DNA of 64,000 nt from contig RFFQ01000012.1 of the NCBI GenBank assembly GCA_003697105.1, positions 12,637 to 76,636 of the forward strand, given 5' to 3'. The position numbers and the translations under genes were made by a program. The DNA is from Gemmatimonadota bacterium (GTDB lineage Bacteria > 4572-55 > J002). How positions within the stretch are numbered: the first letter of the stretch is position 1; the number at the start of each line of letters is the position of its first letter. The notes below the pieces were generated by a model, which was not told the origin of the DNA, made no database searches, and worked only from the letters and a program-made list of their open reading frames with translations. Below, piece by piece: positions 27,880 to 64,000 of this stretch.

Positions 27880-27939
27880 TTCACCTGGGCCGCACATTTA
27901 TTCATATTCACCATTTATTTGCAGGAGGGAAATACTGTT

Positions 27940-28965: not shown

Positions 28966-28991
28966 CCTCCAAACTTTGCCGTTGAAATTGA

Positions 28992-29040
28992 AATGGGTAG
29001 TGGTTATAATGGCATCAATCACTACCCATTCTTTTTATTT
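28992..29040 (+). terminator. Intrinsic terminator before the TonB receptor gene
   Basis: An eleven-base-pair perfect stem AATGGGTAGTG (28992-29002) and CACTACCCATT (29020-29030), extendable inward by three pairs, followed by CTTTTTATTTTA. The receptor ATG comes 19 bases after the tail, so the receptor would need readthrough or a promoter overlapping this element. Confidence 0.88.
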
Positions 29041-29058
29041 TAGTCGGGTTATATCAAA

Positions 29059-31644: not shown

Positions 31645-31665
31645 TGCCCCGGATCAGGAGATACT

Positions 31666-32637: not shown

Positions 32638-32665
32638 TTAGGGTCTCTAAATTTGAGGTAATTCA

Positions 32666-35600
32666 ATGCGATATATTTCATATAGCTTACTGATTTTATG
32701 GGTGTTATTTGGAAGTAGTGTCCGTGCGGACTCTAGCATCCATCATGACATCCATGTGATGGAACTAAACCCTGCCGAGCATACCATTCGTGTGAAAGAC
32801 GAAATTACCATTCCGGCAGACCGGCTAAGCCCGGAAGTCCATTTTTTACTACACGGCGACTTGATGGTGACGGAGTCGTCCATCTCTTACCGCCGCCAGC
32901 GGGAAGCCGCCGCGGAAGATTTTGGCTTGAATCCGGAAGATTTTGAAGCTCCGATGGATATCCCCGTGTTTCATTACATCATCGAGGTTCCAGACCCGGG
33001 TCATGAACTCACCTTTACATTTTATTACGAGGGTACAATCTACCACCCGATTGAGGAGATGTCGGAAGAATACGCCCGCTCATTTAGTGTGTCCCCGGGG
33101 ATCATCTCGGCAGAAGGGGTGTATTTGAGCGGCTCATCAATTTGGGTTCCGTGGTTTAATGACGATTTGGTCACGTTTAATCTGGATGTCACGGTGGATG
33201 CGGCATGGGATGTGATCAGTCAGGGCACACGCGCCGTGCATGAGGTGGTAAACGGAAAAAAACGTGTCCGGTGGGAATCCCCCCAGCCGGTGGATGAACC
33301 CTTTTTAATTGCCGGACCCTTCACCGAATATGACCGCAATGCAGGTGCCGTCACGGCAATGGTCTTTCTGCGCGAAGCCGATGATGCGGCAACGCTTGCG
33401 GAAAAATATCTGGAAGCCACCGCCCAATATCTGGAAATGTACCGTGAACTGATTGGACCCTACCCGTACACCAAATTTGCGCTGGTGGAAAACTTTTGGG
33501 AAACCGGTTACGGCATGCCTTCCTTCACCTTGCTCGGTCCTAAAATTATCCGTTTCCCGTTTATTTTGCACTCCTCCTATCCCCATGAAATTTTGCACAA
33601 CTGGTGGGGTAACGGCGTTTTTGTCGATTACGATAAGGGCAATTGGTGCGAAGGTCTCACCGCATATATGGCAGATCATTTGATCAAGGAACAGCGCGGG
33701 CAGGCGGTGGAATATCGGCGCTCAACTTTGCAAAAATATGCGGATTATGTTAAAGAGAGTAACGATTTTCCCCTGATTGAGTTTCGTTCCCGCCACAATG
33801 CGTCCACGGAAGCCATCGGTTACGGAAAATCCCTGATGTTTTTCCACATGTTACGGCAGGAAGTGGGTGACGAACTCTTTGCCCGGGGGATGCGCCAATT
33901 TTACCGGGAGCAAAAGTTCAAAAAAGCCACTTTTGACGATATTCGCACGGCGTTTGAGAGCCTCACCGGTATTGACCTAAAACCGTTTTTTGAACAATGG
34001 ACTACCCGTACCGGCGCACCGAATTTGGCACTTTCGGATGTCACAGTCACACCCACCGGTGATAAACACCAACTGACATTCCAACTCCGCCAGACCCAAG
34101 CCGGCGACCCTTTTCCCATGCGAGTACCGGTGGCAATCTACTTCGCCAGCCAACCGGAACCGGAAATTCAGCACGTACCGCTTACGTTCAAGTCCCAATT
34201 CTACCAATTTGAATTCGATCAAGCCCCCGTACGAATCGATGTGGACCCGCAATTTGATGTGTTTCGAGCTGTTGATCCCCATGAAGTTCCCCCGGCGCTC
34301 TCCAAAATTTTTGGGGATGATGAGGTGCTGATGGTGCTACCACGAAATTCTGCATTAGTGGAAGCCTACCAGCAACTAGCTCGTACGTGGAACAAACCGG
34401 TAGTTTACGCCGATGAACTTGAACACATCCCAGCGGATAAGCCGGTCTGGATTTTAGGATGGGATAATCCCCACCGGTCGATTATTACCAATGGTATCAG
34501 TGATTATGATGCCGTCATCGGTGAGAGTCAAGTGCGCTTCGGAAAGACGGTTTTGACACGAGAAAATAACAGTTTTGTGGTGGTAGCCCGCCATCCCCAA
34601 AATGTGGAACACGTAGTGGTCTGGTTGGCGACTGATAATCCGGCGGCAATTCCGGGTTTAGCACGCAAACTGCCCCATTACGGCAAATATAGTTATCTTG
34701 TGTTTGAAGGAGATGAACCCACCAACATTGCAAAAGGACAATGGGAAGTGGTGCATTCTCCCTTGAGTGTCACACTGGGCCAGATGACCGTCGAGCCAAA
34801 ACTTCCGGAACGGCAGGCATTGGCAGAACTTCCGCCAGTCTTTTCGGCAGATCGGATGATGGCGGATATTCAATTTTTAGCTAGCGCGGAATTACAAGGT
34901 CGCGGCTTTGGTTCGGCAGGTTTAGACCGGGCGGCGGAATACATCCAACAGCAATTTGAGAACGCCGGATTGCAAGTGATCGTTCAGGAATGGTCAGATC
35001 AAGGGGGTCTCGATAATCAAACGGCGACCCTCAAGAACATCATCGGCATTATTCCGGGCACCCATTCCGGCTGGGAACAGCAATCTGTGGTTATCAGCGC
35101 CCATTACGATCATCTTGGCTTAGGGTGGCCCGATGTGCGACAAGGGAATGAAGGTAAGATTCACTACGGCGCGGATGACAACGCCAGTGGCGTAGCAGTT
35201 TTGCTCGAATTAGCCCGCACCTGGGGCACCAAATTGCAACCCAGCCGGACGATTATTTTAGCAGCATTTACGGCAGAGGAAGCCGGTCGCCGGGGTTCTA
35301 AATATTACGTCGATCATTTTGAGCCATATCCGGCAGATCAGGTAATGGCAAATATCAATCTGGATACCGTCGGGCGTTTGGGTGACGGCAAGATTCAAGT
35401 GATCGGCGGTTCAACCGCCTCAGAATGGAAACACGTGGCGATGGGCGTCAGTTTTGTGACCGGTATCCCCTCTGAGATGGTCACTCAAGATTTAGATGCC
35501 AGTGATCAAGTCAGTTTCATTGAAAAAGGCATCCCTGCCATCCAGTTGTTTACCGGCGCCCATCTGGATTATCATCGCCCGTCGGATACACCAGATCGGA

Positions 35601-35995
35601 TTGATGCCGATGGGCTGGTCAAAGTAGCCATGTTCACCCGCGAGGCAGCACTCTATCTGGCAGAACGAGAACAACCCATGCGTTTTACCGGTAGCCCCGA
35701 CAAAGAACCCCCCCCCGTGATGGAAGGAACGCGCCGGGCCACCACCGGTAGTATGCCCGATTTTAGCTATAGCGGCGAAGGGGTGCGTCTGGCAGAAGTA
35801 CCGGCAGATTCGCCCGCCGCCAAAGCGGGTCTGCAACCCGGCGATGTGCTGATCCGGGTGAATGAAACACCGATCCCCAATTTGCAAGCGTACACAAACG
35901 TTCTCAAAGCCCACCAACCCGGTGATGAAGTGCTGGTAACCTTCCAGCGAGATGGCAACGAAAAATCCGCAAAGTTGGTACTCGGCGCCCGATAA
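32666..35995 (+). CDS. Exported fusion peptidase: M1-like plus M28 plus PDZ
   Basis: An 1109-residue protein with a signal peptide (about residues 1-22). An M1-like gluzincin domain carries H307, E308, H311 (HEILH) and E329; the gap of 17 residues is one shorter than the usual 18. Near 700-1000 lies an M28 aminopeptidase domain with zinc ligands H813, D837, E871/E872, D900 and H970, all in expected contexts (AHYDH, GADDNASG, TAEEAG, LDTVG, DYHRPSD). A PDZ domain (about 1015-1105; AGLQPGDVLIRVNETPI) ends the protein. It is probably a periplasmic or surface aminopeptidase. No sorting tail is seen. It follows the PorV-like gene by 28 bases. Confidence 0.9.
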   Translation: MRYISYSLLILWVLFGSSVRADSSIHHDIHVMELNPAEHTIRVKDEITIPADRLSPEVHFLLHGDLMVTESSISYRRQREAAAEDFGLNPEDFEAPMDIPVFHYIIEVPDPGHELTFTFYYEGTIYHPIEEMSEEYARSFSVSPGIISAEGVYLSGSSIWVPWFNDDLVTFNLDVTVDAAWDVISQGTRAVHEVVNGKKRVRWESPQPVDEPFLIAGPFTEYDRNAGAVTAMVFLREADDAATLAEKYLEATAQYLEMYRELIGPYPYTKFALVENFWETGYGMPSFTLLGPKIIRFPFILHSSYPHEILHNWWGNGVFVDYDKGNWCEGLTAYMADHLIKEQRGQAVEYRRSTLQKYADYVKESNDFPLIEFRSRHNASTEAIGYGKSLMFFHMLRQEVGDELFARGMRQFYREQKFKKATFDDIRTAFESLTGIDLKPFFEQWTTRTGAPNLALSDVTVTPTGDKHQLTFQLRQTQAGDPFPMRVPVAIYFASQPEPEIQHVPLTFKSQFYQFEFDQAPVRIDVDPQFDVFRAVDPHEVPPALSKIFGDDEVLMVLPRNSALVEAYQQLARTWNKPVVYADELEHIPADKPVWILGWDNPHRSIITNGISDYDAVIGESQVRFGKTVLTRENNSFVVVARHPQNVEHVVVWLATDNPAAIPGLARKLPHYGKYSYLVFEGDEPTNIAKGQWEVVHSPLSVTLGQMTVEPKLPERQALAELPPVFSADRMMADIQFLASAELQGRGFGSAGLDRAAEYIQQQFENAGLQVIVQEWSDQGGLDNQTATLKNIIGIIPGTHSGWEQQSVVISAHYDHLGLGWPDVRQGNEGKIHYGADDNASGVAVLLELARTWGTKLQPSRTIILAAFTAEEAGRRGSKYYVDHFEPYPADQVMANINLDTVGRLGDGKIQVIGGSTASEWKHVAMGVSFVTGIPSEMVTQDLDASDQVSFIEKGIPAIQLFTGAHLDYHRPSDTPDRIDADGLVKVAMFTREAALYLAEREQPMRFTGSPDKEPPPVMEGTRRATTGSMPDFSYSGEGVRLAEVPADSPAAKAGLQPGDVLIRVNETPIPNLQAYTNVLKAHQPGDEVLVTFQRDGNEKSAKLVLGAR

Positions 35996-36083
35996 TAATG
36001 GAATTACCCGAGCGGTGGCACAACACCGTCTCCCAAACCGGTATTAAGCTCATTACCAGCGGGAACGGTATTCATAACAACCA

Positions 36084-36144
36084 ACCCTTGCCCGGTGTCA
36101 CAAATGGCAAGGGTGAAACGTAGAAAAATACGGTAAACTATAAT
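36084..36144 (+). promoter_or_regulatory. Hairpin and -10 element before the TolB-like gene
   Basis: The 185-base gap holds a nine-base-pair stem ACCCTTGCC (36084-36092) with GGCAAGGGT (36106-36114) lacking a T run, and a perfect TATAAT at 36139-36144 without a recognisable -35. The promoter may therefore need an activator. AAGGAG precedes the ATG at 36181. Confidence 0.45.
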
Positions 36145-36180
36145 CTTTTCATTCTCACCTTTTAAATTTAAGGAGTTCAT

Positions 36181-37314
36181 ATGACGCGGTACATTGTAAT
36201 CGTAATGAGCATTCTGTTTTTCACCCTTTCACTTTCGGCGGAAGAAACCCTCCTACCGGACCAACTGAAAGATTCACGGGAGGTTCATCTTCAAAATATT
36301 AAACAATTAACTTTCGGCGGGCAAAATGCAGAAGCCTATTTTTCATTTGACGGGCAACGATTAACATACCAATCGACCCCCCGTGACGGAAAATGCGATC
36401 AGATTTATCACATGAATATTGACGGCAGTGATAAACGGATGGTCAGTACAGGCAAGGGAATCACGACGTGTTCCTTCATGTATCCTGATGGGAAGCACTT
36501 TTTGTATGCCTCCACCCATGAAGGGAACCCGGACTGCCCCCCACCACCGGACATGAGTCAAGGATATGTATGGCGTTTGGAAAAAGAGTATGACATTTAC
36601 AAAGCGGATATGGAAGGCAATATTGTTCAAAAATTGACCGATACTCCCGGCTATGATGCCGAGGCGGTCATCTCCCCGACCGGTGACAAAATCGTGTTTA
36701 CCAGCGTTCGCAGTGGTGATTTGGAACTTTGGACAATGGATTTGGACGGTAGTAACCTCAAACAGTTGACAAACACCCCCGGTTATGATGGGGGTGCGTT
36801 TTTCTCCCGCGATGGGAAAAAAATTGTGTGGCGTGCCAGCCGGTTTGAAAACGATCCGGAAGGGTTAGCCGATTACCAACGCTTGCTCAAAATGGGCATG
36901 ATCCGACCCTCTAAACTGGATATTTACATAATGGACGCCGATGGCTCGAATGTCCAACGCGTCACGCATTTTAACAAAGCCAGCTTCGGCCCCTATTTTC
37001 ATCCTTCTGGCGAAAAGATCATTTTTTCAAGCAACTTAGGTGATCCCAAAGGGCGGGAGTTTGATCTATACTTGATCAATATTGATGGTAGCGGTCTGGA
37101 GCAGATCACCTTTACGCCGGAATTTGACGGCTTCCCCATGTTCAGTCTGGATGGGAAAAAACTCGTCTGGGGGTCCAACCGGTTTAATGAGTTACCCCGG
37201 GAAACCAATGTGTTTATTTGCGATTGGGTGGATCAACCGCTAAAATCAAACCTCACACCAGCTAAACGCGGTAAAGCCCGCCGGGTGAGTGGAGAATCCA
37301 GTCACACCCAATAA
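36181..37314 (+). CDS. Exported TolB-like beta-propeller protein (WD40-like PD40 repeats)
   Basis: A 377-residue protein with a signal peptide (MTRYIVIVMSILFFTLSLSAEE). At least five PD40/TolB repeats follow, each with a GKxIVFxS-type strand and a DLYxMDxDGSNxxQLT-type strand (for example near 155, 195, 255 and 300). Together they would close a six-bladed propeller. It lacks the N-terminal TolB domain, so it is not Tol-Pal TolB itself. Such propellers bind proteins or peptides in the periplasm or at the cell surface. It is separated from the fusion peptidase by a hairpin and has its own -10 element. Confidence 0.85.
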   Translation: MTRYIVIVMSILFFTLSLSAEETLLPDQLKDSREVHLQNIKQLTFGGQNAEAYFSFDGQRLTYQSTPRDGKCDQIYHMNIDGSDKRMVSTGKGITTCSFMYPDGKHFLYASTHEGNPDCPPPPDMSQGYVWRLEKEYDIYKADMEGNIVQKLTDTPGYDAEAVISPTGDKIVFTSVRSGDLELWTMDLDGSNLKQLTNTPGYDGGAFFSRDGKKIVWRASRFENDPEGLADYQRLLKMGMIRPSKLDIYIMDADGSNVQRVTHFNKASFGPYFHPSGEKIIFSSNLGDPKGREFDLYLINIDGSGLEQITFTPEFDGFPMFSLDGKKLVWGSNRFNELPRETNVFICDWVDQPLKSNLTPAKRGKARRVSGESSHTQ

Positions 37315-49394: not shown

Positions 49395-52300
49395 TTACTT
49401 CAACATCACCATACTCCGCGTCATGCTGAAGTCACCCGCAGTGATACGATAGACGTACACGCCACTGGCAACCGCGTTGCCGAGTTCATCCGTGCCATCC
49501 CATGTTGCGGTGTAGTAACCCGCCTCCCGCGGCGCATTGACCAGCGTTTTCACCAACTGACCGGCGGCATTGTAAATTTCCAGATTTACATGCGCCTTGA
49601 CAGGTAATTGGTACCGGATTGAGGTCGTCGGGTTGAATGGGTTTGGCGTGTTTTGAGCCATGTCGTAGGTTACCGGAACATCTACGGATGGGGTTTGTTG
49701 TTTGCTTTCCGAGCTAATTTCAAGTTCTGTGACGGATTCAACCGCTTCCGCCAGTTGTTGACCTCGCGAGGTCATGCTCACGTCACTCTTGAGCGTGAGT
49801 TCTGTTTCGCCTGAGAATCGTGCCCGGAAGGTCACGTTTGCGAGCACACCTTCACCATTCACCCCGCCAGCGGCGGCACCAAGGCGAGTCATATCAATCC
49901 GAACCGTACCTTGCTCAACATCGTTGTGGAAGAAGAGCGTTGGTGTACCATCCATGCGGAGGAAGGAGCCTTCTTCGACACGGACGAGTTCAAATTGAGC
50001 GGCATCATATTCGACTTCCAGACTCGTTGCAAACAAGTCTATTGCCTCATTCGCTATAATGCTAAAGGTGTATTCTTCACCTTCCACAAACGACCGCGAA
50101 CCGGTCAGGCTTTCTAAGTGATAAACCGGCGCGCTGGATGCTCGGTGTGCCAAAGCGTGATCCACTGCCTGATCCGCAATCCGGCTAGCACCGGCATAGG
50201 TATCGTAATACAACGCGAAGAGCGTCAAATCTGCCAGATTGATCCGGTAACGCCCACTTGGGATATTATCCGCCCCGCCACCTGCGAGGATCGGTGCACT
50301 ACCGTTTTCACCGGCATAGATACCAATATTACAGATCGGGTTCCAGTTACCAGAAACTTGACCTGTAGCGGGGTCATAGTACGAATTCAAGGCGTAATAA
50401 ATCACCAAGACGTCATCTAAGCCCCCGATGTAACCATCCCCGTTGAAATCCGCTGGCGAGAAGAAGTCTGAAATTTCCAGTTCAACGGGCATTTCTACAT
50501 TACCGGTTGAGGCTTCAAATGTGACGGTCCAGTTGTACACACCCGCGACAACATCACCATCAATCATATCATCATTATCTTGATCGAAATCGAAGATAAA
50601 GTAAACGACGGCACTGCTCGGCTCATCTGAATTTTGGCCATATAAGGTCAAACCGCCATCGATTTGCGCATCATCAAAGGTCAACCATCCTTCTGTGCCC
50701 GAAACTCCCGAGACCGTAACGGTAGCACTTGGGTCAAAAGCGGGGTTCGTAAGGCGCACAGCGACGCGTTCGGAGACATCTTCATCATCAATGGGGACAA
50801 AGAAGGCTTCCAGCATATCCGTATCCGCTTCAAAGTTCGGATGAACAACGAGTTCTGCGGGAACATCCAGAATCGCGCATTCTGGACCAACGATGTCGCT
50901 ATTGCCAACGTTGTACCGGGCGGCAACGCCGTAGCAGTACTCAACGCCAAACTCGACATTCTCATCTACATACGATGTTTGCCGTCCTGTCCAGATCAGC
51001 GTCCATTCCTCTTCAGAGGCAAGCCGGCGATAGAGATTATAGCCAAGTAACCGGATGTCGCGAAGGTCTGAATCCTGTTGCACGGCTTTAGACGCGGCAA
51101 CCGATTTGGCATTATCACCAATTGATGCCGCCGCAACTTTTGTCAACGGGGTAATATCCCGCTCTCCACCAATGCGCTCGGCGCTATCCCAACTGACATG
51201 GATCGTACCTTCATCGAGCATTGCTTCTGCCATGAGGTTTGCTGGACCTGCCGGCGCACCGACCGTAATGGTTACCGGAACATCAACCACCCGTTGATTG
51301 GGATCGTTGCTTCGGAATTGCAATGTTGTTTGGTAGGTATCACCCGATTCAAAATCAGTCGCATCCACCGTCATCATCATGTTATGAGATGTACCGCCCG
51401 GTATCATGAACCAGTGTTCATCCATCGTCAGCCAGTGGCCGACTAATTCCACCGGTGTTGTGCTGAAGCGAATGGCGGTACGCCGGCGAATCCGCGGGGC
51501 ACCGTCGGCGTATGTGCCATTATAGTAATATTGGAGACCTTTGGTACCGTGCATATTTTCAATCCCGATAGAAAGGTCTGTTTGACGAGGTGCGGTTCTG
51601 TATTGAAATACCAGATCGCCATTCGATTTGAACAACACTTGGAAGGTTTCCCGTTGGGTGCTACTCCCAAAATGCGGGACACGGCTGAATTCCACCACAA
51701 ATGTACCATTGCCGTCATCATAGACAAAGATACCACCTGCTGCCGACGGATTTAAGTCATCCCACAGCGGGGCAATGAGATTATTTGCCAAGTTCATGGT
51801 GGGGATGGGGCTAGAACTCAAGCTATTGTTGCCCGGATCATCACCTAAGGACATCCAACCATTGGAACAAATCCAAAGGGTGTTATAGCTTTCACCGTAG
51901 TAAGTGAAGTTGAACGGCAAGGTTACCATACCGCGGTCATCATCACCCAGCGGATTACCTGCGGCATTGAGTACCGGTGTACCATTGCCATCATAAGCCG
52001 GATCGATTTCCATCCAGTCATATTGAGCTTGATAGGCATAGTACGGATAGGCATAGGCGGGATTCATACCGACAATATCAGCCCGGTCAACGTACAGATT
52101 CGCTTCACCGAGGTTACTGAGCGGCATCGAGATCGTTTGAACTTCACCTGCCGAAACTTCCGCCGCAAATTCTACCGGTGCGTTCAAGTCTGGAGCCGAC
52201 AAAACGGTAACTTCAGCAACCGAACTCCGCATCCCGGGAGCGCCATCATACACAGCGGCAACTTGATAGGTGTATGTCCAGCCCGGTGTTACGTTATAAT

Positions 52301-55300
52301 CGTTAAATGTGTTTTGATCCGGTCCAACCGTACCGACTCGGGAGCCGCCGCGGTAGATTTCAAAACCGGTTAGTGAGCGGAGTTGCCCCGGTAACTCCCA
52401 CATTAACGAGACGTACCCATCTGTTTTTGCGATCGCCTCCAACGTGGGTTGGCCGTAGACCGTAAAATCAACCGGGATGGTTAATTCTGGGGTGTTATAG
52501 GCATTACTCAGAATGGTAATGGTACCGTTGTAAAGTCCCGCTTCCACGAGGCAAGAGGCATCGAAGGTCACCGTAACATCAAAGCTACCGGCGCCTTCAA
52601 TCGAACCCATGACCGGATCGACCATTAGCCAATCACACTCTTCGCCGCCGCCACCTTCATAGTCACGGCTATCATACCAGTTATATGTGCCATCGCCATT
52701 GGGTTCAAACATCAGGGCAAATTCATTTTCCAGCACAAATTCTGCCGGAACTTCATCACCACTAATGTTGCTATCACCTTGACCGGGAGCGTTGTTGTAG
52801 AAAATTTCGACCCCAGATGTACCGGTCGGGTCTTCAATACCAATGGTACAGGAGGTAATATCCAGATTTTCCCCAAAGGATTGATACTGGTACACAATCG
52901 AACCATCGGCATACAGAATAATTTCGGCATTGACACCATTTGTTGGGTCTTGATTCCCCGGATATTCAATATAATCGACAAACTGAATGACCAGCATATC
53001 GCCCATCGTTTGATAATACACCGGGGCATTGGTATCCGCGGGGTCCATATCATCCCAGAACCACGGTAGGATGGCATTGGGGGAACTGGACGTTGGAATT
53101 GGGCTGTTGCTGAGTGAGTTCAAGGATGTCGGGTCAAATCCAACCACACCATTGGAACCAATGTAGAATTCGGAATATACCGTTCCGTAGAAATCAAAAT
53201 CAAAACCGATAGGGAACGGACCCACATAGTTATCGTCACCTAACCCTGTGACGAGCGTACCTGTACCGGAAATATCCAGATAATCATATACCACGGGCAC
53301 GCCATCCCCTGGGTTATACCACGGGGAGTAGATCATCACAGCTAATTGCGGCTCAATATAGGCGGCATTATAGACAATTTCCAGCCCATCCGTACCGTCA
53401 ATATTCTCAATACCCACCGTGGCACTGAGCGTATCAAACCCTTCATCCATCGAATCGTATTGAATTTTGATCGATCCATCGGAATAGAGAATGACTTCCG
53501 CATTGATGGCATCTCCCCCATCGGGATATTCATAGTAATTCACAAATTGAATCACAAACATATCATCAATGGTCTGGTAATAGACGGCGGTGTTCGGGTT
53601 CGCTGGGTCTAGGTCGTCCCAGCACCACGCTAAAATATTATTGGGTGTGCTGGTCGTCGGAATCGGGCGGTTACTCAAACTACTCAAGCTCGTGTTTGAA
53701 CCGAAACCTAACAGCCCATTGGAGCCCAGATAGAATTCCGTATAAACTTCATCATAAAACGGAAATTCAATTCCCAACGGGAACGGACCCACGGAGTTAT
53801 CATCGCCTAAACCGGTCACCAAGGTACCTGTGGCGCTAATATCAATATAATCAAAGACAGGACCGTCGGCTTCATAGCTATCCTTCCAACTGTAACCGAA
53901 CGTACCATCCTCGCCCATACCTCGCAGTGCCGGTGTTCCGATACCGCGCGTGGGGTCTTTTTCTTCATACTTCGGTGTTTCTTCCGGCAGTTCTACTTGC
54001 CCCCGATGGACGGAAGGCGTCACGGAAATTTGAGCCGCCCGGGCGAGCATACCGCCGATATCATCCATAATTTCAAAGTCAAGTGTGGCACCACCGGTAT
54101 TGGAGACCGTAAAAGTTTGGGTGGTCATGCTACCCACTTCCGCATCAGCGGCTAACTGCGGCGGGTCAACGGCAATGTACGGTCCCGGGGTGACTTCCAG
54201 ATTCACCGGAACCACCAACTCTGGCTCATTAACCGCATTGCTTGCAAAGATAAGATTACCCGCATACATTCCAGCCAGCAGGTCTGCGGCATCCATGGTC
54301 ACGGTGAAGTCCGCACTCATACCGGGTTCAATGAACGCCACGTCTGGTGAAACAAAGAGCCAATCCAACGTCGGCAATTCGGGGATGTAATCTTCGTTAC
54401 AGGCGATTTGCAGACCATCCGTGGCATCGCCATTTTCAATACCAATAGTGGCGCTATTGAGCAATGCACCATTGCCCATATCGGCATATTGGAATTTGAT
54501 GCGACCATCGGGGTAAATAATTGCCTGAAATGTCAATGAACCCGTCTGGTAATACTTGGGAACTTCATTCCACTGCATCACAAACATATCGGGGCTGGAA
54601 TAGTACCACACACTCCCATTACCGCGGTGGGGTGCGAGATCATCCCAGAAGGGGGCAATCATGTTCTCTGGACCATCGGCTTCACCGATGCAACTATTGC
54701 TATAATCAGCTAAAGTGCTGGTGAAGGTCAAGTAGCCATTCATCCCCACCCGAATTTCATTAAAGGTATTACCGTAGAACACCACGTCAAAACCGAGCGG
54801 GAACGGACCCTCATTACCATCATCACTGGTGGGGACAGCCACCGCGCCGGGCATTGCCGGCACATTGACCCAATCATACGAGGGACCACCGGGTTCGTTG
54901 CTATCCATCCAGACATACCCATACAGGTCAGGCCCCCCAGCACCTCGCAGAACACCTGCACCTTCGTAGCTATCTTTTTCGCCTTTTGCTAAGCCGGACA
55001 AATCACGACCCACAAACTCGGCCTCGCGGACGGCACGCTTAGAAACATCACCGCCGATGCTACGCTCATTTCGTACCGGCGGATAAATCATGACTGCCAT
55101 ACCACCGCCGATGTCATCAGAAGCACCGACCGTCATTGGGGCATTACCCCCATTGGTCACGGTAACGGTTGCTTGAGCAACTTCACGCTCCACTACGGAA
55201 GCTTCGACCATTTCCGGTTCGACCGAAATCAAGGCACCGGTAATGATCACACTTCCATCAACACCGGCACCTGCCGGAAAACCATCATTAAACATAATGG

Positions 55301-58300
55301 GGTCAATCGACAAGATCGATTCATCTGCCACGGCACCGGCTGAGGCAAAATAGGCGAGCAAGAAATGACCATCCATTCGAATGCCTTGTGTACCAAAGCC
55401 GCTGATCATGACCATCCCTTCGCCATTATCATCATACTGTACCGTCCAATCTTCGGTTAGAATATCACCCGGCATAATATCGTAGACGGAGACGACCGTC
55501 GGATCATAGTGCAGGGTAAATTCAAAAGAGACGATATTCATCAGTGAATCGGAATCCATCAAGTAAAAGCTCACCGGACCTGTATCACCGTACGGAATTT
55601 CAGCGAAGTCTTGGATATCGACGATCACCGGTAATTCTTCTACATAAAATTGGTATTCACCCACTACATCACCACAGGCACGGGCTTTACCGGTACTCCG
55701 GCTACCTTCTGGGACGTTGGTCCACGCCGCCAGACGCACCGTATAGGTACCCGCTTCCGGTAAGAACGCCATCACTCGGGGGTTGCAATTCCCCAGTTCA
55801 ATATCATCATCATTGGTGCCGAGTAATTCGCCATTTGGACCGTAGAGATAAAGCGCCGCGTCCACATTACCGAGATCATAAACCGAAATATGTTGTCCGG
55901 CAAGCCCTTCAAAAGAGAACCAATCCACATCCCCTTCTGGGAAGACACACCCATCCACGACACCACCCACCATCGCTGGGGTCGCATCTTCCACGAGATC
56001 GTTGGGTTCATTTGCGTCTGGGCAATCCACCGTAAAGAAGCCATCTTCGGTTAAGGATGCGGGGTCTCCTTCATTCAGTTGAAAATGGACAAAATTCAAC
56101 TCTGAGGTGGAGGTAGGCGCCCCAATAACATCAAAAATCAGATAGACAAAGACACCTTCACCATCTGCGGGGGAAATGTCGAAGCCACTCAATAAGACAG
56201 ACCCCTCAGAACTATTATTGAACGAGAATGTCCACCCTTCGGTTATAGTACCTTCGTCACTGTAACCGGTGGCACTTAAGACCGTGGGGTCATAGCCGAG
56301 TTCTAGGTTGAAGCCAATCACTTCTAAATCGGCAGTTAGGTCTGTGGCATAGAGCGGTACCATGATGCTGGTACCGGTTTCCGCCAACAGGTCTTGTGGG
56401 ATGGAAATATCAACCGTGTACGGGATCACTTCTAAGGTCACAGGGACCCAAAAGGCGGGTGTAAAGGGGTCATTCGTGGTAATCATGAGGTTAGAGCGGT
56501 ATTGGTCAATTTCCAACTGAGAGGCATCGGCTATCACCATCACATCCATGCTTTCGCCGGGTTCAACCGTACCGCTAACGGGGTCTGCCGAAAGCCAATC
56601 GGTCGGAACGCTTTCGGTTTCCAGAGCCACATTGTCGATATACCACCACCAGTCATACTCTGAATCATACCGGAAGCGGAACGTAATATCACTTTGACCG
56701 GCGCCCCATTCAGTAATATCGTAAGAGGCATAGCCAATCACTTGCAGTTCATTACCCATCAATTCCCACGAATCGATAACATCCCAAGTTTGACCGCCAT
56801 CTAAGCTACCTTCGACATAGGCGTACGTATAACTGGAGGGGTCATTTTCGTAACCACCTCGGAGGTCCATCCAGAAATTGAGGTACAAATGTTCAACTCC
56901 TGAAGCATCGGCGCTGGGAGAGATCAATGAGGCATGAACCCGGTCACCAAAGTTACCGTATTCAATTCCAGCAACATTCATATGGAGGTCATTATAGTCA
57001 TCAACAAACCAAATGTTATTGCTTTCTGCCCCTTCTTCTAAGACGGTCGTCCAGCCTTCGGGGAGTTCTTCAGAGGCATCAAAATCTTCGTACCAGAGGG
57101 CATCCCGTAATCCGGCGACGGTACGTTGGGCATTTGCTTCAAACGGGCGATGGATCGCTTCTCGAACGGCGCGTGCCGCGTCCACTTGAGAGCGGCGAAT
57201 CTGTTCATCTTGCAAGCGTTGCAGATCGGAAATTTCATATTCAGCCATTAACATCCGCATTAACGCATCATCTTCCACGGTGAACGTCAATGGGGCTTCC
57301 CCTTCATTACCAATAGTGAGCACATCCATACCCGTCAGCCCTTGCTTGAGGACAAAGTCAAACGATTCTGGAGAATAGGTAACGGCGGGTGGGCTGGCAT
57401 CGCCAACAACAGCGAGACCACCGGTAACGGTTACTTCCGGCGTCCCTTCATTATACACAAAATCAAGACCTAAATCCGTGGTACCGGGAGCCACACCCGT
57501 CCACGTCAAGTCAAGTAAAGTACCTTCACCGACTAAGGGCGTCGTGCTAAACGCATTGATAAGCAACAGACCCGGTTGCGAATCGTTGGCTTGGACAACC
57601 CAACCTTCTAAAAGGTCGCCAACCATCATATCATCCGCCGTAATGGTGACGACGGCGGGGTCATAGCTGATGGAGGCATCAAACGAGACCACCCCATCTC
57701 CTTCGTAGGTCATGCCCGTAATTAGAGAGGTATTACCGGTTTGGAACGGTCCTAAGATGACGGTACTCCCTAAAACAATGTCAATGGGTTGGCGTTCCAC
57801 AGATTGGAGATAGAGGGTGTATTCACCTGTGGTAGCTCGCAAGCCGCTGCTCATCTTGCGTTCTTTTGCCATACGCAATTCAGGGTCATTGGTATAATGG
57901 GCTAAACGAATCCAATACATCCCATCTGCGGGTAAAACCAATTCAATTTCAGGTTGGAGGTCGCCATGACTATCATCATCATTGGTGATATAGAGGGTGT
58001 AGTCATCGGGACCATAGAGATAGATTTCTGGGTCAAGCTGAGAATCACCAACCCGTTCCGTGAACATTAGGACACCTTCACCAGCATTACCCATAAAGCT
58101 GAACCAGTCCACATCTCCTTCTGGAATAATCCAACCACCGATTTCGCCATCAATTTCGATTGAAGTTGCTTCTTCGGCAGTATCGTTAGGTTCGTTGGGG
58201 TCTGGGTCCACAAAGGAATCAAACGTTAAACTGATATGATAGAAATAATCACAACCCCCACTATTAAAATAATCCCGAACATAGGTGTAATACGTACCGG

Positions 58301-59876
58301 TATAAGGTAATTCAAATTCGATGTGCGAATCCCGCCCATCATAATCATCATTAGCGGCAAGAAGTTCACCTTGGTCATCCAACAAATAGAGATATGAATC
58401 GAGGGTAGATGCGGGGTCAAGGTTACGGGCATCAATATCAATAATAGCTAAATCGCCTTCTGTACCTTCAAACGTAAACCAATCTTCGTCATTTTCCGGT
58501 TCGATGATACCTTCCGTGAGGGGTTCATCCGCCATAATCGAATATGCTTCATCCGCATTGTTATTAGGTTCATACGGATCGGGGCATTCTTGTGCGGTAG
58601 CACACTCGATGCTCAACGTATAAGAACCTTCGCCCCCGTTATAGCCATCGACCACAACATAGTATTGTTGGCCGGGTACTGGGGACTCCAGAGTGGCTTC
58701 AAAATTACCGGAAGCTAAACAATCGTTCGCATCGCAACTTCCGAGGATAAAGACATCCAGATCACCACCCTCCAAGTTGCTTAATGTGGCGGTAAAGCTG
58801 GTCACATTTTCATCAACCATCAGAGAATAAACGACTTCGGGACCGGTTTCCGGCCAGGAGGTACAGGAATAGGCGTCCCAATAGGAATTTCCTCCAACCG
58901 TGCTTCCTTCCACCACATCATCACAGGCAAGAACCATTGCATTATCGCACGGTGAGCCACCTTCGCCGACGACAATCGTACCTCCGGAAACATCGACGGT
59001 GGGGTCGCCTTCATTATATTGAAAATCAACGGTCAAATCAGAGGTACCATCAATTAGCCCGGTCCAATTCATTGTAAAGAGCATTCCTTCACCCACAAGG
59101 GGTTGGGTGCTAAAGCCGTTTACAACTAAGACGCCCGGAACGTCCACATTGATTTCCGTGAACCAGCCGTCCACTAAACCGCCATCAAAATCAATATCGT
59201 TACGAGTAATAGAGAGAACAGCCGAGTCATATTGGATGTTGGCTTCAAATGCGAAAACACCATCTTCACCGCAATCCTCGGCAACCATACCAGTGTTTAA
59301 GGCGATCAGGGCAGTCCCTTCCACCGGAATTTCGACATAATCTGGATTGAGCGTAATCGCAATCGGTTCGATACAACCCGGACCGGAACCCACGACAATC
59401 ATACCTCCGGAAACATCGACGGCGGGGTCGCCTTCATTATAAGTAAACGAGACATCCAGATTTGAAAGTCCGTTGTCCAGACCTGTCCATGTCATGGTGA
59501 ACATCAAACCTTCGCCGACGAGGGGTTGGGTACTAAAGCCGTTTACAACTAAAACGCCCGGAGTGCTTACATTGATTTCGGTGAACCAGCCATCGACCAA
59601 GCCACCATCAAAATCAATATCATTCCGGGCAATTGAAAGTACCGCAGGGTCATATACGATGTTTGCTTGAAACGCAAAAACACCATCTTCACCACAATCT
59701 TCACTTACAGCACCTGTGATTAAGGAAATTGTGGTTGTTCCACCCAGCTCTGGGATTTCTGCTGAAGCTGGGTCTAGGCTAATGGGTATGGGTTCTTCAC
59801 ATTGGCCAAAAACGGAGCCAACAACCACAAATACCATCAGGAGCGCCACTGACGTGGCTAGAAAATATTTACTCAT
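49395..59876 (-). CDS. Giant exported mosaic with cohesin-like, dockerin-like, PPC, FN3 and T9SS tail domains
   Basis: A 3493-residue protein with a signal peptide (ends ...GSVFGQ, residue 25) and GAGGAGGAG before the ATG. Approximate order: cohesin-like 28-165 and 169-305; PPC-like 315-430, 435-560 and 565-695; cohesin-like 697-825; an anchor-J/MAM-like sandwich 910-1100; a BACON/ASH-like domain 1105-1165; cohesin-like 1165-1285; PPC-like 1285-1410; cohesin-like 1415-1550. Four copies of an unnamed about 175-residue domain lie near 1651-1834, 1991-2182, 2193-2366 and 2619-2789, with BACON-like and FN3-like domains between and after. A dockerin-like segment (DFNGDGYIGGLDD ... YRINLADLTLFAL) at about 3137-3230, a cohesin-like domain 3249-3379 and a sorting tail 3406-3493 (NTPNPFNPTTSIRYQL) end it. 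Probably surface-exposed; function unknown. Confidence 0.88.
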   Translation of the reverse strand: MSKYFLATSVALLMVFVVVGSVFGQCEEPIPISLDPASAEIPELGGTTTISLITGAVSEDCGEDGVFAFQANIVYDPAVLSIARNDIDFDGGLVDGWFTEINVSTPGVLVVNGFSTQPLVGEGLMFTMTWTGLDNGLSNLDVSFTYNEGDPAVDVSGGMIVVGSGPGCIEPIAITLNPDYVEIPVEGTALIALNTGMVAEDCGEDGVFAFEANIQYDSAVLSITRNDIDFDGGLVDGWFTEINVDVPGVLVVNGFSTQPLVGEGMLFTMNWTGLIDGTSDLTVDFQYNEGDPTVDVSGGTIVVGEGGSPCDNAMVLACDDVVEGSTVGGNSYWDAYSCTSWPETGPEVVYSLMVDENVTSFTATLSNLEGGDLDVFILGSCDANDCLASGNFEATLESPVPGQQYYVVVDGYNGGEGSYTLSIECATAQECPDPYEPNNNADEAYSIMADEPLTEGIIEPENDEDWFTFEGTEGDLAIIDIDARNLDPASTLDSYLYLLDDQGELLAANDDYDGRDSHIEFELPYTGTYYTYVRDYFNSGGCDYFYHISLTFDSFVDPDPNEPNDTAEEATSIEIDGEIGGWIIPEGDVDWFSFMGNAGEGVLMFTERVGDSQLDPEIYLYGPDDYTLYITNDDDSHGDLQPEIELVLPADGMYWIRLAHYTNDPELRMAKERKMSSGLRATTGEYTLYLQSVERQPIDIVLGSTVILGPFQTGNTSLITGMTYEGDGVVSFDASISYDPAVVTITADDMMVGDLLEGWVVQANDSQPGLLLINAFSTTPLVGEGTLLDLTWTGVAPGTTDLGLDFVYNEGTPEVTVTGGLAVVGDASPPAVTYSPESFDFVLKQGLTGMDVLTIGNEGEAPLTFTVEDDALMRMLMAEYEISDLQRLQDEQIRRSQVDAARAVREAIHRPFEANAQRTVAGLRDALWYEDFDASEELPEGWTTVLEEGAESNNIWFVDDYNDLHMNVAGIEYGNFGDRVHASLISPSADASGVEHLYLNFWMDLRGGYENDPSSYTYAYVEGSLDGGQTWDVIDSWELMGNELQVIGYASYDITEWGAGQSDITFRFRYDSEYDWWWYIDNVALETESVPTDWLSADPVSGTVEPGESMDVMVIADASQLEIDQYRSNLMITTNDPFTPAFWVPVTLEVIPYTVDISIPQDLLAETGTSIMVPLYATDLTADLEVIGFNLELGYDPTVLSATGYSDEGTITEGWTFSFNNSSEGSVLLSGFDISPADGEGVFVYLIFDVIGAPTSTSELNFVHFQLNEGDPASLTEDGFFTVDCPDANEPNDLVEDATPAMVGGVVDGCVFPEGDVDWFSFEGLAGQHISVYDLGNVDAALYLYGPNGELLGTNDDDIELGNCNPRVMAFLPEAGTYTVRLAAWTNVPEGSRSTGKARACGDVVGEYQFYVEELPVIVDIQDFAEIPYGDTGPVSFYLMDSDSLMNIVSFEFTLHYDPTVVSVYDIMPGDILTEDWTVQYDDNGEGMVMISGFGTQGIRMDGHFLLAYFASAGAVADESILSIDPIMFNDGFPAGAGVDGSVIITGALISVEPEMVEASVVEREVAQATVTVTNGGNAPMTVGASDDIGGGMAVMIYPPVRNERSIGGDVSKRAVREAEFVGRDLSGLAKGEKDSYEGAGVLRGAGGPDLYGYVWMDSNEPGGPSYDWVNVPAMPGAVAVPTSDDGNEGPFPLGFDVVFYGNTFNEIRVGMNGYLTFTSTLADYSNSCIGEADGPENMIAPFWDDLAPHRGNGSVWYYSSPDMFVMQWNEVPKYYQTGSLTFQAIIYPDGRIKFQYADMGNGALLNSATIGIENGDATDGLQIACNEDYIPELPTLDWLFVSPDVAFIEPGMSADFTVTMDAADLLAGMYAGNLIFASNAVNEPELVVPVNLEVTPGPYIAVDPPQLAADAEVGSMTTQTFTVSNTGGATLDFEIMDDIGGMLARAAQISVTPSVHRGQVELPEETPKYEEKDPTRGIGTPALRGMGEDGTFGYSWKDSYEADGPVFDYIDISATGTLVTGLGDDNSVGPFPLGIEFPFYDEVYTEFYLGSNGLLGFGSNTSLSSLSNRPIPTTSTPNNILAWCWDDLDPANPNTAVYYQTIDDMFVIQFVNYYEYPDGGDAINAEVILYSDGSIKIQYDSMDEGFDTLSATVGIENIDGTDGLEIVYNAAYIEPQLAVMIYSPWYNPGDGVPVVYDYLDISGTGTLVTGLGDDNYVGPFPIGFDFDFYGTVYSEFYIGSNGVVGFDPTSLNSLSNSPIPTSSSPNAILPWFWDDMDPADTNAPVYYQTMGDMLVIQFVDYIEYPGNQDPTNGVNAEIILYADGSIVYQYQSFGENLDITSCTIGIEDPTGTSGVEIFYNNAPGQGDSNISGDEVPAEFVLENEFALMFEPNGDGTYNWYDSRDYEGGGGEECDWLMVDPVMGSIEGAGSFDVTVTFDASCLVEAGLYNGTITILSNAYNTPELTIPVDFTVYGQPTLEAIAKTDGYVSLMWELPGQLRSLTGFEIYRGGSRVGTVGPDQNTFNDYNVTPGWTYTYQVAAVYDGAPGMRSSVAEVTVLSAPDLNAPVEFAAEVSAGEVQTISMPLSNLGEANLYVDRADIVGMNPAYAYPYYAYQAQYDWMEIDPAYDGNGTPVLNAAGNPLGDDDRGMVTLPFNFTYYGESYNTLWICSNGWMSLGDDPGNNSLSSSPIPTMNLANNLIAPLWDDLNPSAAGGIFVYDDGNGTFVVEFSRVPHFGSSTQRETFQVLFKSNGDLVFQYRTAPRQTDLSIGIENMHGTKGLQYYYNGTYADGAPRIRRRTAIRFSTTPVELVGHWLTMDEHWFMIPGGTSHNMMMTVDATDFESGDTYQTTLQFRSNDPNQRVVDVPVTITVGAPAGPANLMAEAMLDEGTIHVSWDSAERIGGERDITPLTKVAAASIGDNAKSVAASKAVQQDSDLRDIRLLGYNLYRRLASEEEWTLIWTGRQTSYVDENVEFGVEYCYGVAARYNVGNSDIVGPECAILDVPAELVVHPNFEADTDMLEAFFVPIDDEDVSERVAVRLTNPAFDPSATVTVSGVSGTEGWLTFDDAQIDGGLTLYGQNSDEPSSAVVYFIFDFDQDNDDMIDGDVVAGVYNWTVTFEASTGNVEMPVELEISDFFSPADFNGDGYIGGLDDVLVIYYALNSYYDPATGQVSGNWNPICNIGIYAGENGSAPILAGGGADNIPSGRYRINLADLTLFALYYDTYAGASRIADQAVDHALAHRASSAPVYHLESLTGSRSFVEGEEYTFSIIANEAIDLFATSLEVEYDAAQFELVRVEEGSFLRMDGTPTLFFHNDVEQGTVRIDMTRLGAAAGGVNGEGVLANVTFRARFSGETELTLKSDVSMTSRGQQLAEAVESVTELEISSESKQQTPSVDVPVTYDMAQNTPNPFNPTTSIRYQLPVKAHVNLEIYNAAGQLVKTLVNAPREAGYYTATWDGTDELGNAVASGVYVYRITAGDFSMTRSMVMLK
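59098..59704. repeat. In-frame tandem duplication encoding the first two cohesin-like domains
   Basis: A block starting AGGGGTTGGGT recurs 423 bases (141 codons) apart at 59098 and 59521, and the following about 185 bases of each copy remain closely similar at the DNA level. It encodes the matching LVVNGFSTQPLVGEG and NDIDFDGGLVDGWFTEINV parts of the two domains. The similarity indicates a fairly recent domain duplication. Confidence 0.85.
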
Positions 59877-60027: not shown

Positions 60028-61650
60028 TTACTCAGAGATTGCTCGGAAAACGACTCGACGATTGACCTGATAATTACATTCCGTAGTATTGGGCACAACC
60101 GGCTCACTTTCACCGGCACCCACGACAATGAGTTGGTCATCAGGAATACCAAAGTTAGAAACCATATACTGTTTCACGCTATTGGCTCGACGAAGTGAAA
60201 GGTCTTTATTATACTCATCAGAGCCTCGGTCATCGGCATGGCCCCGAACTTCGACCTTATTTCCATCCTTAATACATTGTTGGATGATTTCCGCAATTCG
60301 GGCTAAAGCATCGCGGGATTCGGGACGGATTTCATCCCGGTCCACATCAAACAGGATTGGCGGTACATAATCATACCCCGCCAACAAGTAGTATAACCCT
60401 CGTTCATCATCGCATGGACCTTCGCCTCGTTCGACAAACTTGATAACGGTATCGACAACCGTCGTACCACCTTGCGACATCGCATCCGGACAGCCATCTT
60501 CATCATCATATCCATTGTAGTATTCTGGCTGATTCGGGCACTTATCATCGACATCAAAGATACCGTCATGGTCATTATCTGGATCAGGAACACCATCTTG
60601 ATCTTCGTAACCATCTTTGTCTTCCGCTTCATCGGGGGCTAAATCCCGGTCATCTGGGATTCCATCACCATCTCGATCCTGACGCGCCATACTTCCAAAC
60701 GTCATTGTACCGGAAAAACGATGCGTGGCATCAATCTGGGAATAATCGACATACGCATAATCTAACCGGACATCCCCAACGAAAACACCAAACCCGGCGC
60801 CAAATTCACCTTGCTCGGCGTTAACCCGGTAACCGGCACGGAGTGCTAAGAGGTCATAAAAGATGGTTTCCCCACCCACATTAAAGCGAAGCCCATTACC
60901 GGCAAATGGCAAATAGGCTAGGGCATCCAAACCTAGGTTTAGGTCAAAGTTTTCACCATCAACAGCCGCCCAACCCAAGCCGGCACGAAATTCCTCAGCT
61001 TCGTGCTTATCGGGGTTATCTTCATCACTTTCCAAATAATTCCCCGGATTAACATTACGAAAGGTTAGACCAAAAGCAAGTTTGTCTGATAGCGGTTTCA
61101 ACAGCCCGACATCAAACATCGTATAGTTAAAATGTTCTTCTGCGAGGGTTTGCAACATCATTTTCCCGTTAATCCCCAAGGTGGTTTTTCCCAACAGCGG
61201 GAGTTTGGCAGGATACGAATATCCGACAATGAGTGTCATATCAGAAGCATCGGCACGTCCTCCCGCCAAAATACCATCCATGTCAGTGATAGGGATATTT
61301 CCTTGATCAAAATAGATCAATCCGAAAGCAACCGTCCCTTTACCCCATGGAACGGCGTATGCCGCAAAATTATGTGAGGCATCCGTTAACCAATCGGCAT
61401 AACTCACCGTCAGTGTCCGGTATTCCAACAATGCCAAACCGGCTGGGTTGCTTGCCAGCGCACTTACATCAGCATCAACTCCGACTAGGCCCACTGAGAC
61501 ATCACCCATTGCCGCTTGACGGGCACTTGCCGTGATTTTCAGCGCATCAAGTCCGGCAGCTCCCGCATTATCATATATCTCAGCGGAGCTTACCATCGGA
61601 ATTGATAAGATCAACGCAAAAACAAATACAGAAAGTCGATAAGCCTTCAT
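60028..61650 (-). CDS. PorV-like barrel fused to thrombospondin type-3 repeats and OmpA domain
   Basis: A 540-residue protein from the ATG at 61650 with AAGGAGG nine bases upstream. Signal peptide 1-23; PorV/PorQ-like barrel about 24-320 (ITASARQAAMGD, then SALASNPAGLALL); calcium-binding Asp-rich TSP3 repeats about 324-390 (DRDGDGIPDD, DNDHDGIFDVDDKCP); OmpA peptidoglycan-binding domain about 428-538 (ILFDVDRDEI, GHADDRGSDEYN, LSLRRANSV, with Asp and Arg ligands near 474 and 488). The OmpA C-domain ties the outer membrane to the cell wall. A small GCAGAG hairpin (61679-61697) sits in the leader. It lies between two genes for exported proteins with T9SS-like tails. Confidence 0.92.
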   Translation of the reverse strand: MKAYRLSVFVFALILSIPMVSSAEIYDNAGAAGLDALKITASARQAAMGDVSVGLVGVDADVSALASNPAGLALLEYRTLTVSYADWLTDASHNFAAYAVPWGKGTVAFGLIYFDQGNIPITDMDGILAGGRADASDMTLIVGYSYPAKLPLLGKTTLGINGKMMLQTLAEEHFNYTMFDVGLLKPLSDKLAFGLTFRNVNPGNYLESDEDNPDKHEAEEFRAGLGWAAVDGENFDLNLGLDALAYLPFAGNGLRFNVGGETIFYDLLALRAGYRVNAEQGEFGAGFGVFVGDVRLDYAYVDYSQIDATHRFSGTMTFGSMARQDRDGDGIPDDRDLAPDEAEDKDGYEDQDGVPDPDNDHDGIFDVDDKCPNQPEYYNGYDDEDGCPDAMSQGGTTVVDTVIKFVERGEGPCDDERGLYYLLAGYDYVPPILFDVDRDEIRPESRDALARIAEIIQQCIKDGNKVEVRGHADDRGSDEYNKDLSLRRANSVKQYMVSNFGIPDDQLIVVGAGESEPVVPNTTECNYQVNRRVVFRAISE

Positions 61651-61814
61651 CAGATGATTCCTCCTTATTGTTGAGGTTGCAGAGTTTGCGTCTCTGCGAG
61701 TGTGAAAAACGGTAAAATAACTATTAGTGCTGATAATATAATTTAAGATGCCTCTCAACATTGAATCTACTCTCTCTTTTACGATGATATATTTGGAGAA
61801 AGACTGTGAAGGTT

Positions 61815-61857: not shown

Positions 61858-64000
61858 CTAACGACGGATAACCATGATCTTACGAACATCCGTTTTGCCG
61901 TTAGTTTCAACGACCGCGATATAGACGCCAGAGACCACATCTACACCGCTTTCATTCTTCAACTCCCACTTCACAACGCAGGTACCCAAGGCATCACCAC
62001 GTTCAGCGGAGGTACCTTCAAGAACAGCTACTTCCTCACCGGACATGGTATAAATTGTGATGCTATAAGGCGCATTGCTACAATCGGGGTTATAACCATT
62101 TGCCAGACTCGGGTCTTCCCCAACTTTAATAGCCACGTGAGGCGGGCCATCAAAGTCAGCATCGGTGTAAACTGGGTTCGGATACACGCCCGCAAAACCA
62201 GCATTACTGATGTCATCAATCGGGCTTGTACCTTGTTCAACTTCCAGCCAGTCATTCGTACCGTCATCATCCGAGTCATAATCGTTCGGGTCGGAATTGA
62301 AGCTATTTTCGTTGCCGCATTCCTCACCGTCCGACAAACCGTCATTATCACTATCAAAATTACCCGGATTGGTGGAGGCATAGCGCTCACCGCTGCCGTC
62401 TGGTTTCAGACAACCCAGTTTTTCTTCGCTATCCGTCAGATTATCCAAGTCATTATCGGAATCTGCCGTCGGGTCACTACCAAAAGCAACCTCTTCACCA
62501 TCACACCAACCGTCACCATCAAAATCACCACGGAACGGATTTGTATTGTAGATGGTCATTTCATCTGCCGTCAACAATCCGTCACCATCCGGGTCACCCA
62601 TCACATCAACCGTAGCCGGGTCAACCAGATTACCTTGGCAATCGATAATCACAGAGTTGCCAGTACCATCATCGGCGTCATTGATACATGGATTGCTACC
62701 GATCTGAATTTCATAACCATCTTCTAAGAAGTCACCATCGCTATCTGGATTAAGCGGATCCAAACAGGTGTAACCACCATCCACAGCATAGGTCATTTCT
62801 TCAAGGTCGGTCAGACCGTCGTTATCACTATCCACATCATTCACCGTGATTTGCAAGATAAAACTGGTGGTACTACCGTCCGCACCCACCGTTACCGCGT
62901 ATTGATAGTAATCTTCGCGGACTAATGGGAACGGAATCGTAACGGTTACAGCTACTTCACGGATAGCACCTGCCATCAGGTTGGTTACCACTTCAAAATC
63001 CGGCGCGAAGTCATAGTCACCTTGGAACAGCGCGACCGGGGTAAATGTGACACTCGATAAGTTCGTATTACCCGTGTTCTCAACCATAAAGCTGGTTGAA
63101 ACCACGCTGTTCGGTATACCAACCACACTCACGACATCCGGCATCACATCAATTCCGGGTGTTGCATTCACCGATACTTGCAACACCGTTTCCGCGGTTT
63201 CACCATTAGCGGTCGTCACAGAAATAGTACCGGTGTACAGACCCGCCAGTTGACCCGCCGGCACCGTCACTTGGACATTCACCGTCGGCGTTTCAGCAAT
63301 ACCAACCATCTGAATCATCTCCGGCGCAAATGTCACTTCACTTGCCGAGATGGTGGTTTGACCTGATTCATGAACCAGACCCGTCACATCAAAATTGACA
63401 TCGGTCAATGCGACCGGGCTATCACCGGTTACGGAGACCGTGAAGTTCGTCGTGGCTTCCGTACCCGGGTTAGCCGTTGCCGTTGCCGGTATAGACAACG
63501 CAACACCTGTTTCAACCGTCAAGGTCAACATCGTGCTGGTGGTGGCACGACCATCTGGGTCATTGATGTAAATCATACCCTGATAGGCACCCGATGCCGT
63601 ACCCGCGGGCGGACGAACCGTTACCGGCACATCCACGCTCTCATTCACCATCAAGGCTTCGATGACATTCACACCAAACTCAACCGCACTACCCGGAATG
63701 AAACTGCTACGCAACGCACCCGCCTTGGTAACACCACCAAAACGTGCCGGCACATTGTTTAAGTCACTTGCCGAGAGGTCTAGGTTGAATACGTCACAAT
63801 TACCGGAGTTTGTCACGGTTAATGTGCCCGTCCAGACACCCGCATCATCATCGGTAGTCGCGACGGCATCCGCCGTAAGGTCACACGTTAGGGCAATTTC
63901 AACGTTCAAGGTGAACTCATCGCTCACTCCTTCAGCCGTCGTCAACGTCACCGTACCCGTGTACGTACCCGCATGGTACATGTCACCATCCGGGGCATCC
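61858..64000 (-). CDS. Exported protein with Ig-like repeats, TSP3 calcium repeats and T9SS-like tail (5' end outside window)
   Basis: The frame is open to the window end, so at least 713 residues are present and the N-terminus is missing. The first about 390 visible residues are repeated CARDB/Ig-like beta-sandwiches (for example AGTYTGTVTLTTAEG and AGLYTGTISVTTANG; ASGAYQGMIYIND). TSP3-type Asp-rich calcium repeats follow (about 395-595; VDSDNDGLTDLEE, NPDSDGDFLEDGYE, DYDSDDDGTNDWLEV). The last about 95 residues form a sorting-type tail (GVYPNPVY, ITIYTMSGEEVAV, VVSGVYIAVVET, VRKIMVIRR). It is probably secreted through the same route as the giant protein and is transcribed ahead of the PorV-OmpA gene. 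Confidence 0.86.
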   Translation of the reverse strand, partial: DAPDGDMYHAGTYTGTVTLTTAEGVSDEFTLNVEIALTCDLTADAVATTDDDAGVWTGTLTVTNSGNCDVFNLDLSASDLNNVPARFGGVTKAGALRSSFIPGSAVEFGVNVIEALMVNESVDVPVTVRPPAGTASGAYQGMIYINDPDGRATTSTMLTLTVETGVALSIPATATANPGTEATTNFTVSVTGDSPVALTDVNFDVTGLVHESGQTTISASEVTFAPEMIQMVGIAETPTVNVQVTVPAGQLAGLYTGTISVTTANGETAETVLQVSVNATPGIDVMPDVVSVVGIPNSVVSTSFMVENTGNTNLSSVTFTPVALFQGDYDFAPDFEVVTNLMAGAIREVAVTVTIPFPLVREDYYQYAVTVGADGSTTSFILQITVNDVDSDNDGLTDLEEMTYAVDGGYTCLDPLNPDSDGDFLEDGYEIQIGSNPCINDADDGTGNSVIIDCQGNLVDPATVDVMGDPDGDGLLTADEMTIYNTNPFRGDFDGDGWCDGEEVAFGSDPTADSDNDLDNLTDSEEKLGCLKPDGSGERYASTNPGNFDSDNDGLSDGEECGNENSFNSDPNDYDSDDDGTNDWLEVEQGTSPIDDISNAGFAGVYPNPVYTDADFDGPPHVAIKVGEDPSLANGYNPDCSNAPYSITIYTMSGEEVAVLEGTSAERGDALGTCVVKWELKNESGVDVVSGVYIAVVETNGKTDVRKIMVIRR

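Follow-up and report, generated by a model that had tools for sequence, protein, structure and literature searches.

Related systems

Outside cellulosomes, cohesin-dockerin pairs still have no settled role. Ca. Stygibacter (Cloacimonadota) encodes a non-catalytic cohesin scaffold of 3755 aa with a T9SS C-terminal domain, its genome also has dockerin-ended S8 and C25 peptidases, and docking of such proteins on the scaffold has been proposed, itself a deduction from the genome only (PMC8542988). For ANME archaea, cohesin/dockerin proteins have been regarded as possible links between proteins of the outer cell layer (PMC9012536), and in syntrophic sulfate reducers cohesin and dockerin proteins have been interpreted as putative adhesins (PMC10553843).

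Here we analyze a giant protein encoded in a stretch of 64,000 nucleotides (the window) from the genome of a Gemmatimonadota bacterium (4.18 Mb, 97% complete; its assembly yielded no 16S rRNA). Taken singly, this protein has a near counterpart in the literature. It resembles the Ca. Stygibacter scaffold in being very large and non-catalytic, in its repeated cohesins and T9SS tail, and in the dockerin-ended peptidases of its genome; that scaffold differs in having CBM2/CBM3 and partner glycoside hydrolases, and no dockerin is reported for it in the portion of the description considered here, whereas the giant protein has one (PMC8542988). The ANME proteins are similar in combining one dockerin with multiple cohesins (up to five) in a single chain, but they are archaeal and have no T9SS tail (PMC9012536). 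The cohesin fold and its repetition are shared with the clostridial scaffoldins CipA (1anu, 1ohz) and the C. cellulolyticum scaffold (1g1k); unlike them, the giant protein comes without a carbohydrate-binding module and without cellulases, and its anchoring is of the gram-negative T9SS kind rather than through an S-layer or sortase.

The genome as a whole offers a testable set: cohesins of two classes, dockerins of two or more types, proteases that end in a dockerin, and a dockerin-cohesin-sorting-tail module common to many proteins. This set bears on whether bacteria with a T9SS use cohesin-dockerin parts to make lattices or protein-degrading assemblies at their surface.

Architecture of the giant protein

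The gene is a single open frame of 3493 aa (49395..59876, minus strand, as are all features of this protein given below) with an AGGAGG-type ribosome site just before the ATG. A Sec-type signal sequence, MSKYFLATSVALLMVFVVVGSVFG, was identified by eye at residues 1-24 (59805..59876), and the chain ends in a T9SS type A sorting tail at residues 3405-3493 (49398..49664), which scores 33.7 bits with TIGR04183 (cut-off 23) in a region that also matches FlgD_ig (50.3 bits, cut-off 27). The observation reported in the initial annotation, that of an exported protein of 3493 residues with a sorting tail, six or so cohesin-like domains and a dockerin-like segment, largely holds, and its first two elements are borne out in full.

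Between these ends, the cohesin-like domains alternate with domains of other kinds. Three PPC-type domains (PF04151, 81.6 bits on the whole protein) are placed by our own HMM at residues 334-691 (57804..58877), and a further one at residues 1286-1412 (55641..56021). A choice-of-anchor J-like stretch lies at residues 928-1084 (56625..57095; NF038128 24.9 bits, under the cut-off of 30). The region 51552..54938 matches nidogen-like domains (PF06119, 54.1 bits on the protein), of which our own HMM finds four copies, at residues 1647-1816, 1992-2158, 2192-2351 and 2626-2775, with Ig-like spacers between them. Profile searches of the giant protein found no carbohydrate-active or carbohydrate-binding domain, as the initial annotation had stated for the carbohydrate-active ones.

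The count of about six cohesin-like domains is confirmed, although not all of them are reached in the same way. Over the whole protein PF00963 gives 92.6 bits (cut-off 24.1). When the domains are scored singly, domains 4 (residues 1152-1287; 56016..56423), 5 (residues 1415-1550; 55227..55634) and 6 (residues 3249-3392; 49701..50132) lie above the cut-off, with 28.3, 29.4 and 37.6 bits, respectively, whereas domain 1 (residues 26-165; 59382..59801) remains below it with 14.9 bits, and domains 2 (residues 167-306; 58959..59378) and 3 (residues 697-834; 57375..57788) give no score. The first three are recovered only through a family HMM, which we built from domains 4-6 and their paralogs with domains 1-3 left out, and which detects the left-out domains at E = 3.8e-24, 1.3e-25 and 4e-21; the maximum over 300 shuffles of the whole protein was 5.1 bits. 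Domains 1 and 2 are mutually 76% identical. A 14-row profile of the cohesin family matches solved cohesins over the full length of the profile (1g1k at 1e-9).

Structure prediction agrees with the assignment of domain 6, as cohesins occupy 50 of the 50 top Foldseek rows (probability 1.00) for the predicted model of the C-terminal dockerin-cohesin region. For domain 1, predicted from six sequences, the model is of low confidence (pLDDT 63); cohesins are among its top Foldseek rows, none at E <0.001, and its VIA-align list contains no cohesin. Domain 6 is firmly assigned as a cohesin by sequence and predicted fold, and domains 1-5 are confirmed as cohesin-like by sequence profile.

The dockerin-like segment lies at residues 3140-3228 (50193..50459), as aligned to paralogs on C3, C14 and C179, and had been described as having two DxNxDG-type loops. 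This is correct for loop 1, DFNGDGYIGGLD, a canonical calcium loop, but loop 2, IPSGRYRINLAD, is degenerate and has lost its ligands at positions 1, 3 and 5. The segment carries insertions, is the most degenerate dockerin within its group, and has no match to PF00404 even at E = 10. The alignable paralog on C179 passes PF00404 (32.2 bits vs the cut-off of 22.9), and a four-row profile of the dockerin-cohesin-tail ending matches the solved dockerin 2y3n chain B with its first part (E 0.0013), cohesins with its middle part, and FlgD and PorU with its end. Because this paralog passes, the profile matches 2y3n and loop 1 is canonical, we consider the segment a diverged dockerin; it appears to be real, and is recognized as one solely through homology to its paralogs. 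The predicted model of the region has a usable cohesin core and a poor dockerin (mean pLDDT 51.5).

Two cohesin classes and the dockerins of the genome

Genome-wide, we found 14 PF00963 places and 16 PF00404 places. The giant protein and 12 others end in a dockerin, a further domain and a sorting tail. In 8 of these 13 proteins the intervening domain is a cohesin (the giant protein and those on C3, C14, C31, C111, C124, C163 and C179), and in the other five (C125, C140, C160, C176 and C48) it is a shortened cohesin-like domain that plain HMMs miss or barely detect and that profile-profile comparison recovers with a probability of 91 (E 1e-6). All dockerins found before sorting tails in this genome are followed by a cohesin or a cohesin-like remnant.

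A tree of the cohesins, based on a short alignment and with some local supports low, places domain 6 in one clade with the tail cohesins of C163, C124, C111, C31 and C3 (local support 0.935), whereas domains 1-5 group with the cohesin repeats of C16, C157 and C160, apart from the tail clade. On sequence, the six domains separate into a scaffold class of five N-terminal cohesins and a tail class of one. The gene on C157 (L040:3-1856, minus strand) is a second scaffold-like array, truncated at the contig end; it encodes at least four cohesins, three of which we compared with domains 1 and 2 of the giant protein, finding 58-63% identity.

Dockerins are also found at the ends of at least seven proteins that have no sorting tail (C74, C165, C103, C53, C56, C30, C96 and probably C140). 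These include two subtilases (C74 and C165) as well as beta-propeller, Ig-like and lectin-like proteins; no glycoside hydrolase was present in the eight dockerin-ended proteins scanned, and some dockerin-ended proteins of the genome are free of any cohesin. Many dockerins of another type are near-twofold symmetric, with ISxFDAARxAQY occurring twice and 8-10 of 15 positions identical in 8 of 10, an internal symmetry that would be expected if a binding face had been retained. Judged by these sequences, the genome holds at least two dockerin types.

Secretion machinery and gene neighborhood

The genome encodes SprA (508.6 bits), PorU (649.9 bits) and about a dozen proteins over the cut-off for the PorV family (up to 233.7 bits), along with about 100 sorting tails. 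Display by a type IX-like route, suggested in the initial annotation, is hence well supported, and the presence of SprA, PorU and many PorV proteins indicates that the route is the T9SS proper. The gene for the dockerin-ended subtilase of C74 follows that of SprA in the same orientation, at a distance of about 0.8 kb (L126:3322-9528 and 10304-12607). In the window itself, a T9SS cargo, a TonB-type receptor, a PorV-family protein and a large aminopeptidase-like protein are encoded in a row at 27919-37314 (plus strand).

Giant T9SS surface adhesins can be encoded beside an outer-membrane T9SS helper, as in SprB/SprF-type pairs. Our protein is similar in that its gene adjoins that of an outer-membrane helper, directly upstream (60028..61761, minus strand), but this helper is a PorV-family barrel to which TSP3-like loops and an OmpA domain are fused (NF033709 108.1 bits, cut-off 90; PF00691 80.5 bits), and the giant protein's tail is of type A. 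The next upstream gene (61858..63981, minus strand) is probably cut by the contig end and has TSP3 repeats (35.4 bits) and a borderline T9SS tail, for which TIGR04183 gave 24.7 bits in one search and 19.5 in another. Downstream of the giant gene are genes for endonuclease III and a TPR protein, which look unrelated to it. A relative of the PorV-OmpA gene in genome G001 (39% identity) has upstream of it a frame of 2069 aa whose sorting tail is weak, and downstream a PPC protein; we rejected the idea of a fixed pair with the giant gene, since no cohesin giant occurs there in the stretch examined.

Proposed role and alternative explanations

Given the signal sequence, the sorting tail and the SprA/PorU/PorV machinery of the genome, the giant protein most likely crosses the outer membrane and is fixed at the cell surface through its tail end. 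We tentatively favor its being a scaffold or adhesin without catalytic function, displayed by the T9SS, with N-terminal cohesins that may serve to hold exoproteins ending in a dockerin; our confidence in this falls a little short of half. Domains 1-5 would point outward from the cell and hold the dockerin-ended exoproteins that lack sorting tails, giving an assembly of proteases and adhesins at the surface, while the dockerin and cohesin near the tail would lie at the base close to the membrane, either closed on themselves or forming a sideways link between neighboring tail-bearing proteins. Docking on domains 1-5 is suggested by the domain inventory and by the parallel with Ca. Stygibacter (PMC8542988), and the near-identical repeated cohesins of the giant protein and of C157, as in scaffoldins, are in agreement with a scaffold. 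Against it, PF00963 recognizes domain 1 only weakly and domains 2 and 3 not at all, and the crossing of the outer membrane by tail-less dockerin-ended proteins is unexplained. The separation of dockerin ends from sorting tails is not independent evidence, because a very C-terminal dockerin leaves no place for a tail. Most of the chain consists of adhesin-type domains, so docking may be secondary.

A second explanation, quite possible though we hold it less probable, is that the cohesin- and dockerin-like domains are structural modules only and that the giant protein serves as a long stalk or adhesin that docks nothing. Its dockerin may then pack on the tail cohesin as a rigid base, comparable to the X-modules on dockerins; the loss of loop 2 and the gain of insertions would be understandable, as would the reduction of the adjoining domain to a remnant in C176, C48, C140, C125 and C160, the fact that each pre-tail dockerin of the genome adjoins a cohesin or a remnant, and the large share of the chain that is PPC and nidogen-like. 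What this explanation does not accommodate well are the near-identical cohesin repeats and the symmetric dockerins elsewhere in the genome, which resemble maintained binding faces, and the dockerin-ended proteins that have no cohesin. The occurrence of both partners in one chain, known also from the ANME proteins (PMC9012536), together with a linker of 20-30 residues that would permit binding in cis or trans, is what one would expect if the dockerin bound cohesins of other copies head to tail to give fibers or a surface layer, as the initial annotation envisaged. We consider such self-polymerization unlikely, because the protein's own dockerin is degenerate in loop 2 and unmatched by PF00404; the dockerin is also near the membrane end and far from domains 1-5, its adjoining cohesin belongs to the separate tail class, a fiber fits poorly with each chain being anchored at one end by its tail, and the same tail is carried by 12 other proteins. 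A cellulosome scaffold for polysaccharide degradation would share the multiple copies of the cohesin fold, but we found neither a carbohydrate-active nor a carbohydrate-binding domain in the protein and no glycoside hydrolase among the eight dockerin-ended proteins scanned. We regard such a scaffold as highly improbable, and the argument against a cellulosome made in the initial annotation is supported.

The dockerin-cohesin-tail ending in other genomes

Since 12 other proteins have the same ending, the dockerin, cohesin and sorting tail form a shared ending and not a device specific to the giant protein. The same ending occurs in G001, a genome from the host's class, and in three genomes outside the host phylum (G002, G004 and G059); its dockerin-cohesin linker is 20-30 residues long, and in some of the proteins from outside the window's genome cohesins flank the dockerin on both sides. 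At least partial matches to the dockerin-cohesin profile occur in 33 of 386 genomes. A repeated module of this kind was not described in the literature that we searched, the coverage of which was incomplete, and the claim of novelty is a weak one. The ending might be a dedicated coupling module of T9SS cargo used across several phyla, in which the dockerin of one tail binds the cohesin of the next. We think this improbable; if true, all proteins with the ending would be anchored near the outer membrane, and many different ones would be joined sideways in a single lattice that carries the dockerin-ended proteases on top.

The dockerin-cohesin module was used to scan 84,980 named genomes twice. 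The first returned no relatives, and the second, with the consensus row placed first, returned nine, all dockerin-only and found in Planctomycetes-type and Armatimonadetes-type genomes. An alignment including the planctomycete dockerins was dropped, as these had aligned onto the cohesin. The genome G059, a single contig of 5.0 Mb, has at least 56 cohesin and at least 88 dockerin places and several proteins with the dockerin-cohesin-tail ending, and is richer in this system than the giant protein's own genome.
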